A stretch of 64,000 nt of DNA from Cylindrospermum stagnale PCC 7417. GTDB lineage: Bacteria; Cyanobacteriota; Cyanobacteriia; Cyanobacteriales; Nostocaceae. A model generated the notes under the pieces. It searched no databases and had not been told where the DNA came from. It was given only the letters and a program-made list of their open reading frames with translations. The stretch's first letter is position 1; each line of letters begins with the position of its first letter. Made by a program: the position numbers and the translations under genes. Shown here one piece after another: positions 17,822 to 59,138 of the stretch. The stretch covers positions 6,526,501 through 6,590,500 of the forward strand of contig NC_019757.1 of NCBI RefSeq assembly GCF_000317535.1, given 5' to 3'.

Positions 17822-18826
17822 GTGAGATTAGGAGTGCAAAATTTAGGCGTAGCAATTATCGGAAGTGGCTCGGCCCTACCTGCGACTTCCGTGGACAACC
17901 AGGCACTGAGCGAAGTAGTTGAAACCTCAGATGAGTGGATCATCACGAGAACAGGAATTAGTCAAAGACAGTTAGCACTACCAACAGAATCCTTAAGCGG
18001 GCTTGCAACCATTGCCGGCAATCAAGCGCTCGCCGCAGCAGGACTTGAAGCATCAGACATCGATCTGATTCTACTGGCAACATCCACCCCTGATGATCTG
18101 TTTGGCAGTGCTTGTCAAGTTCAGGCTAAATTGGGAGCGACCAAAGCAGTAGCCTTTGACTTAACAGCTGCCTGCTCTGGTTTTCTGTTTGGACTGGTAA
18201 CGGCAGCCCAATACATTAGAACAGGTGTTTATCAAAATGTACTTTTGATCGGGGCAGATATCCTCTCTCGTTGGGTAGATTGGGAAGATAGGCGGACTTG
18301 TGTACTATTTGGCGATGGTGCCGGGGCAGTAGTGTTGCAGGCGAATAAGAGCGATCGCTTACTAGGTTTTTCACTTAAAAGCGATGGCACTCAAAACCAC
18401 TATCTCAACCTAGCCTACAATCCTTCTGCCCAAGAACTGATTCCCGGCGTCAGTGTTGCCAAAGGTACATATATGCCCATTACGATGAACGGCAAAGAAG
18501 TCTACCGGTTCGCCGTCCAACGAGTGCCAGAAGTCATCGACAAAGCCCTATTTCAAGCTAACCTCAGTGTTGACCAAATAGATTGGCTACTATTACATCA
18601 AGCCAATCAGCGGATTCTCAATGCTGTGGCCCAACGCCTAAATATTCCAGAGCATAAAGTTATCAGCAACGTCGCCCATTACGGCAACACCTCTGCCGCC
18701 TCCATCCCTTTAGCTTTAGATGAAGTAGTGCGGCAAGGCAAAATTAAACCCAATGACATCATTGCTACATCCGGTTTTGGTGCTGGTCTGACTTGGGGCG
18801 CAGCAATTTTTCAATGGGGAAGATAG
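17822..18826 (+). CDS. fabH: 3-oxoacyl-ACP synthase III
   Basis: A 334-residue ketoacyl-ACP synthase III that condenses acetyl-CoA with malonyl-ACP to begin fatty acid synthesis. The catalytic triad is visible: Cys118 in TAACSGF, His in LLHQANQRI and Asn in GNTSAASIP. The start is GTG at 17822; a second GTG at 17837 (MQNLGVAIIG) begins nearer the conserved fold and cannot be excluded. It is followed by tandem repeats and an IscB transposon that separate it from fabD. Confidence 0.95.
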   Translation: MRLGVQNLGVAIIGSGSALPATSVDNQALSEVVETSDEWIITRTGISQRQLALPTESLSGLATIAGNQALAAAGLEASDIDLILLATSTPDDLFGSACQVQAKLGATKAVAFDLTAACSGFLFGLVTAAQYIRTGVYQNVLLIGADILSRWVDWEDRRTCVLFGDGAGAVVLQANKSDRLLGFSLKSDGTQNHYLNLAYNPSAQELIPGVSVAKGTYMPITMNGKEVYRFAVQRVPEVIDKALFQANLSVDQIDWLLLHQANQRILNAVAQRLNIPEHKVISNVAHYGNTSAASIPLALDEVVRQGKIKPNDIIATSGFGAGLTWGAAIFQWGR

Positions 18827-18827
18827 G

Positions 18828-18915
18828 AATTGGGTAATGGGTAATGGGTAATGGGTAATAGAAATAGACCAATCACCAATCGCCAATTACCAATTAGCAA
18901 TTACCAATTAGCAGT
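18828..18915. repeat. STRR heptamer array
   Basis: Four GGGTAAT units at 18832-18860, then the complementary family CCAATTA/CCAATCA/GCAATTA at 18868-18915. The two halves are roughly inverted and could fold back on each other. Confidence 0.8.
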
Positions 18916-18926
18916 CAACCACCCAT

Positions 18927-18951
18927 CACTAATCGGAGTACCGATATAGTG
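18927..18951. repeat. 25-bp hairpin repeat, upstream copy
   Basis: Imperfect palindrome with 5+5 bp arms and a one-base bulge, identical to 20587-20611. It is either the left-end transposase-binding palindrome or the host-derived guide region of the omega-RNA. Confidence 0.85.
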
Positions 18952-19200
18952 AAGGCTTGAAAGAGCCTAGTTGACCAGCTTAAGTACTTCGAGTACTACG
19001 TTTTGAGCTAGAGTTAAAGACCTACCAGGGGATACGTAGCCAGTTTCCTGCACTAGAACCGAACTATTAAACATCTTTACAAGGGTTAAGGAAGTGTAGT
19101 TTGGATAGTTACCGACTCAAAACATTAGCGTTCGCGCAGCGTGCCGGAGGCTTTGGCTAACATTACCCGTTCGCGGAGTATGGCACCAGCCATAAACAGG
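18951..19200 (+). ncRNA. Omega-RNA (HEARO RNA) of IscB
   Basis: The 250 bases directly upstream of iscB are non-coding and structured: a 5' stem AGGCT (18953-18957)/AGCCT (18964-18968), an AGTACT-TCG-AGTACT hairpin (18983-18997) enclosed by an AGCT/AGCT pair (18977-18980 with 19006-19009), and more pairing beyond. Family knowledge: IscB uses an RNA transcribed from this position, with the guide at its 5' end taken from the sequence next to the left end of the element. The guide here would therefore end with ACCGATATAGTGA. The 3' part (19128-19180) carries a common palindromic Nostoc repeat (GCGTGCCGGAGGC type). Exact ends are inferred. Confidence 0.75.
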
Positions 19201-19206
19201 GACAAG

Positions 19207-20499
19207 ATGTCCAAAATTTTTGTAATTGATACAGACAGGCAACCATTAAATCCAATCCACCCAGCACAAGCAAGGCAGTTATTACGAAACAAAAAAGCAG
19301 CAATTTTTAGACGGTTTCCATTCACTTTAATCCTGAAAGAATCTCGGACTAATTCGCCTTCATCCCCGCTGAGATTAAAAATTGACCCCGGAGCCAAACA
19401 TACAGGAATTGCATTAGTTAACGATTCTACTGGCGAGGTGGTTTTTGCAGCCGACCTTGAGCATAGAGGTTTTGCCATCAGAGACTCTTTAACCACTAGA
19501 AGGCAGTTAAGACGGAGTAGAAGAAACCGGAAAACTAGATACCGTCAACCAAGATTTATGAATAGAAATCGTCCACAAGGATGGTTAGCACCAAGCTTAC
19601 AAAGTCGAGTTGAAAATATTAAAACCTGGGTAAATAAGTTAGTCAAATTTGCACCAATAGAAGCGATTAGTCAAGAATTAGTCCGCTTTGATATGCAGTT
19701 AATAAGTAACCCAGATATCCAGGGTAAAGAGTATCAACAAGGTACTCTTGCGGGTTATGAAACTAGGGAATTTCTATTAGAAAAGTGGAATAGGCAATGT
19801 GCATACTGCGGAGTGAAAGACGTTCCTCTTCAAATAGAACATATTCATCCCAGAGCAAGAGGAGGTTCTAATTCAATCACTAATCTCACCTTGAGTTGTG
19901 AGAAATGCAATAGAAAAAAAGGGACTAAAGATATTAAAGAATTTCTCCAGAAAGACCCATCTAGATTGGAAAAACCCATCAAACAAGTAAAACGACCATT
20001 GTCTGATGCCGCAGCAGTAAACACAACTAGATTGGCATTACTATTCGTCTTAAAATCAACTGGATTACCAGTAGAAATAGGTTCAGGAGGTTTAACAAAA
20101 TTCAATCGGAGCCAGCTAAAACTAGAAAAAAGCCATTGGTTAGATGCGGCTTGTGTTGGCAAATCAACACCTGTTCTCAAGGTTAAAGGTATCAAAGATT
20201 TGTTAATTAAAGCTAATGGTCACGGGACACGCCAATCATGCCGGACAGACAAATTTGGCTTTCCATCTCGCTATGTACCGAGATTCAAGTATGTTTTAGG
20301 TTTTCAAACTGGAGATATTGTTAAAGCCATTGTCACTAGGGGCAAAAAAATCGGTGAATACATTGGACGAATAGCAGTCAGGACTAGTGGCAGTTTCAAT
20401 ATCTCAACCCAGAGTTGTCTAGTTCAAGGAATTAGTTACAAGGCTTGTAAACACATTCACAAAAAAGATGGCTACGAATATGGAAAATCAAGGATTTAG
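19207..20499 (+). CDS. iscB: IscB RNA-guided HNH/RuvC nuclease
   Basis: A 430-residue IscB, the transposon-encoded relative of Cas9. In order: N-terminal PLMP-type domain (RQPLNPIHPAQARQLL, 11-26), RuvC-I IDPGAKHTGIALV (Asp60), arginine-rich bridge helix (98-113), RuvC-II ISQELVRFD (Glu157), HNH domain with zinc pairs C198/C201 and C231/C234 and catalytic IEHIHP (His212) plus GGSNSITNL, then RuvC-III SHWLDAACV (His310, Asp313). Every catalytic residue is present, so it looks active. ATG 19207 is chosen because the fold begins there; an upstream in-frame GTG at 19141 would translate repeat DNA. It would cut DNA chosen by the omega-RNA and so help the element persist. Confidence 0.95.
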   Translation: MSKIFVIDTDRQPLNPIHPAQARQLLRNKKAAIFRRFPFTLILKESRTNSPSSPLRLKIDPGAKHTGIALVNDSTGEVVFAADLEHRGFAIRDSLTTRRQLRRSRRNRKTRYRQPRFMNRNRPQGWLAPSLQSRVENIKTWVNKLVKFAPIEAISQELVRFDMQLISNPDIQGKEYQQGTLAGYETREFLLEKWNRQCAYCGVKDVPLQIEHIHPRARGGSNSITNLTLSCEKCNRKKGTKDIKEFLQKDPSRLEKPIKQVKRPLSDAAAVNTTRLALLFVLKSTGLPVEIGSGGLTKFNRSQLKLEKSHWLDAACVGKSTPVLKVKGIKDLLIKANGHGTRQSCRTDKFGFPSRYVPRFKYVLGFQTGDIVKAIVTRGKKIGEYIGRIAVRTSGSFNISTQSCLVQGISYKACKHIHKKDGYEYGKSRI

Positions 20500-20569
20500 A
20501 AATTACTCAACTGTTTCTCTCACGGTTTCTGCTATGCAGAAAAATTGTCAGGAAACGTTGAGTAATTTC
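20499..20569. repeat. Long imperfect hairpin after iscB
   Basis: Outer arms 20499-20517 and 20552-20569 pair with one bulge (GAAATTACTCAAC/GTTGAGTAATTTC core), and an inner TTTCTGC-TAT-GCAGAAA hairpin sits between them. It may be the right-end palindrome or a terminator for iscB. Confidence 0.7.
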
Positions 20570-20586
20570 TCTCCCATTTCTCCCGA

Positions 20587-20611
20587 CACTAATCGGAGTA
20601 CCGATATAGTG
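20587..20611. repeat. 25-bp hairpin repeat, downstream copy
   Basis: Identical to 18927-18951. Its stem can be lengthened by flanking CCC/GGG, and it ends 21 bases before the fabD start codon, so it may also influence fabD transcription or translation. Confidence 0.85.
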
Positions 20612-20632
20612 TGGGTTTCCTGGGAGGTTTAG

Positions 20633-21514
20633 ATGACTAAAACTGCATGGGTGTTTCCCGGACAAGGTTCGCAAACACTGTTCATGGGAATGGACTTATT
20701 GGATATACCATCTGCTAAAGAAAAATTTGCCCAAGCTGAGGCAATTTTGGGCTGGTCTGTAACAGAAATCTGTCAAAGCGATGCCGAAAACTTATCACGT
20801 ACCCTCTATACTCAGCCAATTCTTTATGTGGTAGAAAGCATTCTCGCTGATTTAGTTCGGGAACGAGGAAACCAACCAGATTTAGTTGCTGGTCACAGTT
20901 TGGGTGAATACATCGCCCTTTACGTCGCGGGTGTCTTTGAATGGTCTACTGGGTTGCACTTGGTCAAGCGTCGGGCTGAACTCATGGATAATGCCGCAGG
21001 TGGGATGATGGCGGCTTTAATGAACTTTGACCGCGAACAGTTGTTCATGGCCATTGCCCAAACCCCTGATGTTGTGCTTGCAAATGACAACAGTCCCGCT
21101 CAAGTGGTAATTTCTGGCACTCCTGACGGTGTACACGCGGTAATGACCCAAGTTAAGACCAAGCGGGCAATTGTCTTAAAAACTTCGGGAGCATTTCACT
21201 CACCCTTAATGGCAGCTGCGGCGACAGAATTCCAAGAAGTGCTTGAATCTGTGGTATTTCAGCCAGCTACTGTACCAGTTTTATCTAATGTTGAGCCAGT
21301 TTCCTCAGTTGATGCCGAAATTTTAAAACAGCGCCTCAGTAATCAAATGACGGGTTCAGTACGTTGGCGAGAAATTTGTCTACAATTACCAGCAAATGGC
21401 ATTGAGCGAGTAGTGGAAATTGGCCCTGGTAACGTGCTAACTGGGTTGATTAAGCGCACTAGCCCCGGCTTAATATTAGAAAATGTTCGCAATGCTGCTG
21501 AGTTGCCTGCTTAG
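20633..21514 (+). CDS. fabD: Malonyl-CoA-ACP transacylase
   Basis: A 293-residue FabD that moves malonyl groups from CoA to ACP. Seen: N-terminal FPGQGSQ, the nucleophile motif GHSLGEY (Ser89), and the catalytic His in SGAFHSPLM. A strong ribosome site GGGAGG stands 6 bases before the ATG. It belongs functionally with plsX and fabH upstream; the IscB element now lies between them and may have uncoupled its transcription. Confidence 0.95.
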   Translation: MTKTAWVFPGQGSQTLFMGMDLLDIPSAKEKFAQAEAILGWSVTEICQSDAENLSRTLYTQPILYVVESILADLVRERGNQPDLVAGHSLGEYIALYVAGVFEWSTGLHLVKRRAELMDNAAGGMMAALMNFDREQLFMAIAQTPDVVLANDNSPAQVVISGTPDGVHAVMTQVKTKRAIVLKTSGAFHSPLMAAAATEFQEVLESVVFQPATVPVLSNVEPVSSVDAEILKQRLSNQMTGSVRWREICLQLPANGIERVVEIGPGNVLTGLIKRTSPGLILENVRNAAELPA

Positions 21515-58794: not shown

Positions 58795-59138
58795 CCCCTC
58801 TCCTTAAAGACGAGGGGTGAACTACTCTGCCGTAAGACGGACAGAGCTTCCCAATTCATCGGGAATAGCCTCAAGGACTCCGTAGTTCTATTGGTCTAAC
58901 ATTCCCTCCAAGGGCAGAAGTCCTGGTTCCCAAGACCCAAACCTTTTACTTGCGACACTTACCTATCAGCTTGGTTTTCGCTTACGGCATTGGTGGTCAA
59001 GACATGAATATCTTACCAGAAAACCTGGGGATTCGTCATCCATCTGATATTTGTTTTTGCTGTGCAAAAAATCAATTCCAGATGCAATCCTCATCAAGAG
59101 CTCACAATCCCCACCTTATGAGTACATTGAAGGTGGGG
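58795..59138. mobile_element. Possible gutted IS200/IS605-like element
   Basis: A GC-shifted, structured stretch beginning with a CCCCTC/GAGGGG hairpin (58795-58817) and ending with CCCCACCTT/AAGGTGGGG (59109-59138) followed by GACTTCCGCG. It has several internal stems but no transposase, tnpB or iscB; a 68-codon frame at 58950-59156 is not recognisable. The two terminal hairpins suggest a deletion derivative of an IS200/IS605 or HEARO-like element. Interpretation uncertain. Confidence 0.4.

Follow-up and report, generated by a model that had tools for sequence, protein, structure and literature searches.

Cas9 descends from nucleases of the IscB type, and described IscBs use a guide of 16 nt. 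HEARO elements have been reported as integrating before ATGA or GTGA, and imperfect hairpins with a bulged base are typical of IS200/IS605 ends. To our knowledge, the means by which IscB elements lacking a transposase move have not been settled. Excerpts of published reports state that few HEARO nucleases lie near TnpA (PMC9755519), that NTGA is the TAM of DtIsrB, an IsrB relative of IscB (PMC9581776), and that IStrons combine an intron with an insertion sequence (PMC4227781). The locus described here lies in a stretch of 64,000 nt of contig NC_019757.1 of Cylindrospermum stagnale PCC 7417 (the window, to which coordinates refer unless a locus is named). It resembled the IscB/omega-RNA (OMEGA) systems (NF040563 plus RF02033) in its domain order, its catalytic motifs, an upstream scaffold with a host-derived guide, an ATGA-type right flank and the lack of tnpA in the element, and the protein was not distinct from those systems in anything. 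Since IscB was found at an E value of at most 1e-130 in 54 of the 118 genomes of the family and is thus common there, the element itself is already of a known type; Nostocales plasmid records already name such proteins iscB. Two features looked new, namely, the position at a gene start and an end shared with TnpA/TnpB transposons. We consider it highly probable that the locus is a complete, nonautonomous IscB/omega-RNA transposon of the IS200/IS605 superfamily, inserted before the ATGA at the start of fabD and operating with guide targeting, copy retention, mobilization in trans and read-through into fabD.

The element comprised 1,719 bp (18914-20632), with ends fixed by two empty sites and by other copies in the genome. 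An uninterrupted fabH-fabD junction was found in both of the other genomes of the genus available to search (G001 and G002), where heptad-like repeats were followed directly by the ATGA of fabD. A sequence-only reading of this DNA had placed a complete IscB/omega-RNA element between fabH and fabD and had named an empty site in related strains as a check; protein and RNA family matches agreed with that placement, and exactly this segment was absent between the two genes in G001 and G002. The span that it gave, 18927 to 20611, was slightly too short, as both coordinates mark the outermost positions of a terminal hairpin. This hairpin occurs as identical 25-bp sequences on the plus strand at the guide-side end (18927..18951) and at the TAM-side end (20587..20611), and it folded as DNA at -8.7 kcal/mol (z = -5.75), forming 11 pairs with a single bulged base. 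Comparison of the element junctions with the two empty sites revealed no target-site duplication. The flanking open frames, both on the plus strand, were that of what is presumably fabH (17822..18826; named from the earlier reading and from general knowledge) and fabD (20633..21514), in which a Pfam acyl transferase domain covered residues 6 to 277. The right flank, ATGA (20633..20636, plus strand), is the fabD start codon and appears TAM-like in light of the empty sites and of DtIsrB, whose NTGA TAM it fits. Because the empty sites put both element ends between the guide and ATGA, the guide lies outside the element and the TAM lies at the opposite end. Heptad-like repeats (AATTACC and AATTAGC) occupied positions 18835 to 18913; they reached the fabD start codon in both relatives and also occurred before another gene (L106).

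The iscB gene (19207..20499, plus strand) was an open frame of 430 codons whose product matched the guided IscB model of NCBIfam (NF040563) at 451.2 bits (cutoff, 175), the Pfam domains RRXRR and HNH and, by sequence, the IscB chains of the PDB. Cas9 models stayed below their cutoffs (TIGR01865, 25.4 bits against 100; Cas9d, 53.4 bits against 375). A split RuvC (D60, E157, H310 and D313) with an inserted HNH (H212 and N226) was present and, together with C198, C201, C231 and C234, gave 10 catalytic or zinc-binding positions, all of them intact, in keeping with the earlier description of a 430-residue IscB with every RuvC and HNH catalytic residue. Roles were assigned to these residues by alignment to OgeuIscB-type chains and from known motifs. 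In an alignment of 51 sequences, the protein itself among them, each position was conserved in 50 or in all 51; the alignment omitted 8 loci whose aligned stretch showed an apparent stop. Moreover, dN/dS was 0.104 to 0.110 in three between-species pairs, indicating purifying selection. This iscB was the only full copy in the genome; weak IscB matches elsewhere in it (L005 to L013) were short and partial and lay mostly over the HNH region.

Directly upstream of iscB, an omega-RNA (HEARO) scaffold (18914..19166, plus strand) was matched by the RF02033 covariance model over its complete length (model positions 1 to 211; cmscan) at 117.7 bits (gathering threshold, 83; E = 1.2e-23), its first base being the guide-side end of the element. 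The structured noncoding DNA proposed earlier at the omega-RNA position, for which a covariance search had been suggested as a check, was thereby identified. HEARO was the sole Rfam match up to an E value of 0.01 between positions 18800 and 20700, and the scaffold folded as RNA with a z score of -3.13. Of 78 related loci, 60 were scanned, and HEARO lay at the same place in 58 of these. From the intact motifs, the purifying selection and the complete omega-RNA we infer a putatively active nuclease.

A 16-nt guide of host DNA (18898..18913, plus strand) is predicted immediately before the first position of the HEARO model. Compared by eye, the 16 bases before ATGA in the empty relatives differed from it at two positions in G001 and at one in G002. 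In the genome itself, an exact match to guide plus ATGA was absent, and two ATGA sites had one mismatch; one of these (L106) opens a frame of 390 codons and is possibly a landing site and possibly a self-target at once. The predicted guide falls within heptad repeats that are common in the genome, and at up to three mismatches guide-plus-TAM matches in this genome numbered 187 forward and 191 reverse, compared to 2 and 3 for the control. A repeat-borne guide could render an active nuclease harmful or dull its specificity.

In the mechanism that we propose, the omega-RNA would be read starting at the guide-side end, some 16 nt of host DNA serving as its guide. Since that guide is host derived and sits at the guide-side end of the element, the IscB-omega-RNA complex would be aimed at guide plus ATGA, which is the empty fabH-fabD allele. 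This allele would be cut once the element has been excised by a transposase, or else in a sister copy, and recombination of the cut allele with an occupied copy would restore the element. Movement would need a TnpA in trans that acts on ends common to TnpA and TnpB elements, and fabD would be read through from the element and would use a Shine-Dalgarno sequence in the element end. The protein and RNA families, the ends, the empty sites, the shared terminal structure and the docking counts are direct observations; we infer cutting, copy retention, trans-mobilization and fabD expression.

The element terminus before the fabD ATG reads GGGAGGTTTAG and contains the Shine-Dalgarno-like motif GGGAGG (20622..20627, plus strand), supplied by the element 5 nt before the ATG. 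The last 20 nt of the element paired with the anti-Shine-Dalgarno sequence at -11.4 kcal/mol, compared to +1.3 kcal/mol for both empty relatives, and 7% of the predicted gene starts in the window reached -9 kcal/mol. Judged by this pairing, the element-borne motif probably serves fabD. The location before a fatty-acid gene, with the omega-RNA and the terminal structure R1 (see below) inside a region read towards fabD, would also suit a domesticated element that regulates fabD or the fatty-acid block through an omega-RNA or ribonucleoprotein acting on 5' regions. However, the catalytic sites are intact, the element is missing at this site in two congeners, and related elements dock before unrelated genes, and we regard such domestication as very improbable.

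Docking at gene starts was counted in related elements. In the first set, the right end could be defined in 52 of the 58 HEARO-bearing related loci, and in 26 of these 52 the flank was the start of an open frame that ran for 80 codons or more and that, with the empty site rejoined, was preceded by fewer than 60 open codons. The corresponding background was 194 of 2,569 RTGA sites in the same flanks, a value slightly raised because the insertion sites under study were still counted in it. Since the end search demanded ATGA or GTGA, the RTGA flanks of this set do not prove the TAM independently. The second set was drawn from 120 IscB places found in the search of family genomes, from which 47 were skipped (end absent or unclear, several belonging to other clades with other ends) and 50 elements were left after removal of duplicates; 21 of these 50 lay at starts of frames of at least 80 codons. 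When the sets were combined (102 elements) and only frames of 80 codons or more were counted, starts accounted for 44 of the 75 ATGA-flanked and 4 of the 27 GTGA-flanked elements; the background under this looser rule was 459 of 2,569 RTGA sites. By end type, starts made up 22/31 for A and D, 17/27 for C and others, 5/19 for B and 4/25 for E, the types having been drawn after the data were seen; the element at 18914-20632 is of type A. One second-set locus (L224) is a misplaced copy of first-set locus L081 that was counted as a GTGA-flanked, type B nonstart, and without it the counts are 4/26 for GTGA and 5/18 for type B. All docking counts include related elements and so are not independent of each other, and a few ends were set by hand, some being uncertain by a few bases. 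In a third set, selected by the right-end pattern at unused loci with no requirement for iscB, 18 of 33 were at starts, including a second element of this genome and two orthologous sites. Relaxing the right-end pattern yielded 7 further matches without an RTGA flank, some of them by chance.

The genes behind these flanks were examined as well. Eight of 10 downstream proteins (that of fabD and 9 chosen ones) matched Pfam, and in 6 the domain began within 15 residues of the start. Among 7 annotated plasmid records, the CDS began exactly at the flank in three and probably in a fourth, and not in the other three; one of the three exact cases was parB, located after parA. Titles and abstract openings among the literature matches listed, a scope outside which the main primary papers lay, mentioned neither start-codon docking nor R1, and the excerpt of PMC13180657 contained nothing on docking.

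A tentative reading, to which we give somewhat less than an even chance, is that ATGA-flanked IscB elements dock at gene starts, including those within operons, with the TAM doubling as the start codon and a Shine-Dalgarno sequence in the element end reinitiating translation of the displaced gene, and that the subtype found here shares R1 with TnpB/TnpA elements, so that one kind of TnpA mobilizes two unrelated RNA-guided nucleases. Insertion would then be nearly harmless, because the element end would reinitiate the displaced gene, and it is the common R1 end that would allow one kind of TnpA to mobilize both nucleases. If true, start-codon docking with an element-borne ribosome-binding site would account for the tolerance of a 1.7-kb insertion between fatty-acid genes, and it would provide a natural family of insertions that separate the 5' region of a gene from its start. 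As far as the excerpt on IStrons goes, both would be mobile elements built for low-harm insertion, but the means in IStrons is RNA splicing, whereas here it is suggested to be a translation start supplied by the element.

It is also quite conceivable, though we stop short of calling it probable, that the position at gene starts reflects survivorship, with elements inserting at random before ATGA and being lost elsewhere. Insertions within genes are harmful, GTGA-flanked elements are seldom at starts (the 4 of 27 above), and the strength of the end-borne Shine-Dalgarno sequence did not predict docking in the new elements, all of which agree with such a process. In the first set, strong pairing accompanied 19 starts and 7 nonstarts and weak pairing accompanied 8 starts and 18 nonstarts (P = 0.005); in the second set, the corresponding counts were 11 and 11 for strong pairing and 10 and 18 for weak pairing (P = 0.39). 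For ATGA-flanked elements only, P was 0.10 overall and 0.72 for the new elements. Shine-Dalgarno strength was therefore no longer taken as a demonstrated cause of docking, as the first result was not replicated. On the other hand, of the 162 ATGA sites in the window that were either starts or noncoding, only 27 were starts under a loose definition, compared to 44 of 75 ATGA-flanked elements; insertions in noncoding DNA should be tolerated under survivorship and hence be commoner than was observed.

Between iscB and the right hairpin lies R1 (20496..20573, plus strand), a terminal structure on the TAM side that is conserved, shows covariation and spans 79 model positions; Rfam returned no match for it. 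In 25 aligned copies, 95.7% of the pair cells were standard pairs, and changes on both sides of a pair occurred in 54 cells, compared to 23.3 +- 3.5 in shuffled alignments (reached by 0 of 500) and at most 16 with slid partners. Two weaker measures were reached more often by shuffles, namely, 8 pairs with changes on both sides (33 of 500) and 17 further pair types (186 of 500). The outer arms belonged to the selection rule but the middle helix did not, and the middle helix had 3 pairs with double changes.

Matches to the R1 model were found in 47 of the 118 family genomes. Fifty loci were inspected, 30 of them returned by the search and 20 picked by hand, mostly away from IscB, for which reason the class proportions are not representative; removal of duplicates by place left 44 distinct places. 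R1 followed an IscB match on the same strand in 14 of the 44, started 5 to 14 nt after the end of a TnpA match on the same strand in 7 and had TnpB on the opposite strand in 18, six of which were closely similar copies in one genome. The remaining 5 lacked an IscB, TnpA or TnpB match and included omega-RNA-only elements of this and other genomes. Both R1-adjacent TnpAs tested matched NF033573 (IS200/IS605 transposase), and all six R1-linked TnpBs tested matched NF040570. The element thus resembles Nostocales IS200/IS605 TnpB and TnpA elements in its TAM-side R1, which in the TnpA elements lies just after tnpA. It differs from the TnpB elements in carrying iscB, which is read in the direction of the TAM side, whereas TnpB is on the other strand, and in the TnpB copies of G008 divergence sets in after ATAAA rather than before ATGA. 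Since R1 was not found up to an E value of 1 in nine loci with other end types (L024, L028, L029, L031, L045, L052, L074, L084 and L338), among IscB elements it marks subtype A and not the D ends grouped with it. The simplest reading is that R1 is a common TAM-side end on which one kind of TnpA serves both these IscB elements and TnpB elements. Because R1 also ends TnpB elements and tnpA-bearing elements, TnpA acting in trans is suggested, and the shared end provides a testable candidate for the mobilizing transposase. In this genome, R1 occurred at five places, namely, this element, an omega-RNA-only element, two TnpB loci (L382 and L383) and one weak match. An R1-like match at window positions 59025 to 59095 was weak (23.5 bits; E = 0.009). 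Near the R1-type TnpB of L383 (G000:C2:1101500-1107000), positions 1003 to 1434 held a frame with a repeated peptide, of the kind expected from direct repeats, CRISPR-like or otherwise.

The Y1 transposase TnpA was absent from the element, in agreement with the earlier statement that there was no tnpA; all Y1_Tnp matches of the genome fell outside it, and none of its further long frames resembled tnpA. Without a TnpA of its own, the element is nonautonomous and is assigned to the IS200/IS605 superfamily by its ends only, which have subterminal imperfect hairpins on both sides and the R1 end in common with TnpA-bearing elements. Two divergent TnpA queries found no TnpA beside IscB in the loci fetched before the R1 search, and TnpAs came to light only through R1. 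The six Y1_Tnp matches of this genome included the best one, with two in-frame stops, another with one stop and three that were partial or weak, and the scanned end motifs were absent from all six loci, the intact L019 included. L019 was rejected as the mobilizer for this reason. Since the search of the genome revealed no intact tnpA whose ends match, this copy may be stranded without a mobilizer. One might go further and suppose an element that is still encoded, immobile for want of a compatible TnpA and tolerated because it supplies the translation start of fabD. The missing transposase, the single full iscB copy and a fabD Shine-Dalgarno sequence that is strong here and missing in both empty relatives are consistent with this. 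Nevertheless, the catalytic residues show no decay, dN/dS is about 0.11 between species, the omega-RNA is complete and the element, being absent from fabH-fabD in both congeners, is no old fixed feature of the genus; we consider this explanation rather unlikely.

Remnants of related copies show past mobility and decay in the genome. The GTCAACC that starts the left end recurred in L004, L016 and L017. L017 (G000:C2:5682229) is a solo remnant consisting of the left end, one hairpin and the right end, followed by ATGA; L016 (G000:C2:5496785) retains the left end and a hairpin, with a right end cut short so that its last part is missing. Such single-hairpin joins would be expected if the identical terminal hairpins recombined. 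L004 (G000:C2:2128356-2128670, minus strand) is an internally deleted copy with 89% identity to IscB residues 69 to 173. A second HEARO of this genome, at L002/L292 (G000:C2:3538951-3539232, minus strand; 112.8 bits), is part of an approximately 543-bp element that has an omega-RNA and R1 but lacks iscB; this element ends in the same way before ATGA and abuts a 384-codon gene, taken to be sqdB, to which it supplies GGAGGG.

In the genome G026, 12 right ends of this type were found alongside one IscB match at an E value of at most 1e-130, and 4 of 9 loci scanned (L314, L316, L318 and L322) contained a full HEARO 499 to 531 bp from the right end. These omega-RNA-only elements with the same ends are suggestive of a MITE-like expansion of guide-RNA elements. 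G102 carried 14 very similar copies (L164 to L177) of a different IscB clade, in which the shared sequence ends in AAAGAC and lacks an ATGA flank; this clade has apparently been recently active. Elsewhere in the window, the cyanobacterial small RNA Yfr1 was matched at positions 1450 to 1514 (61.8 bits).
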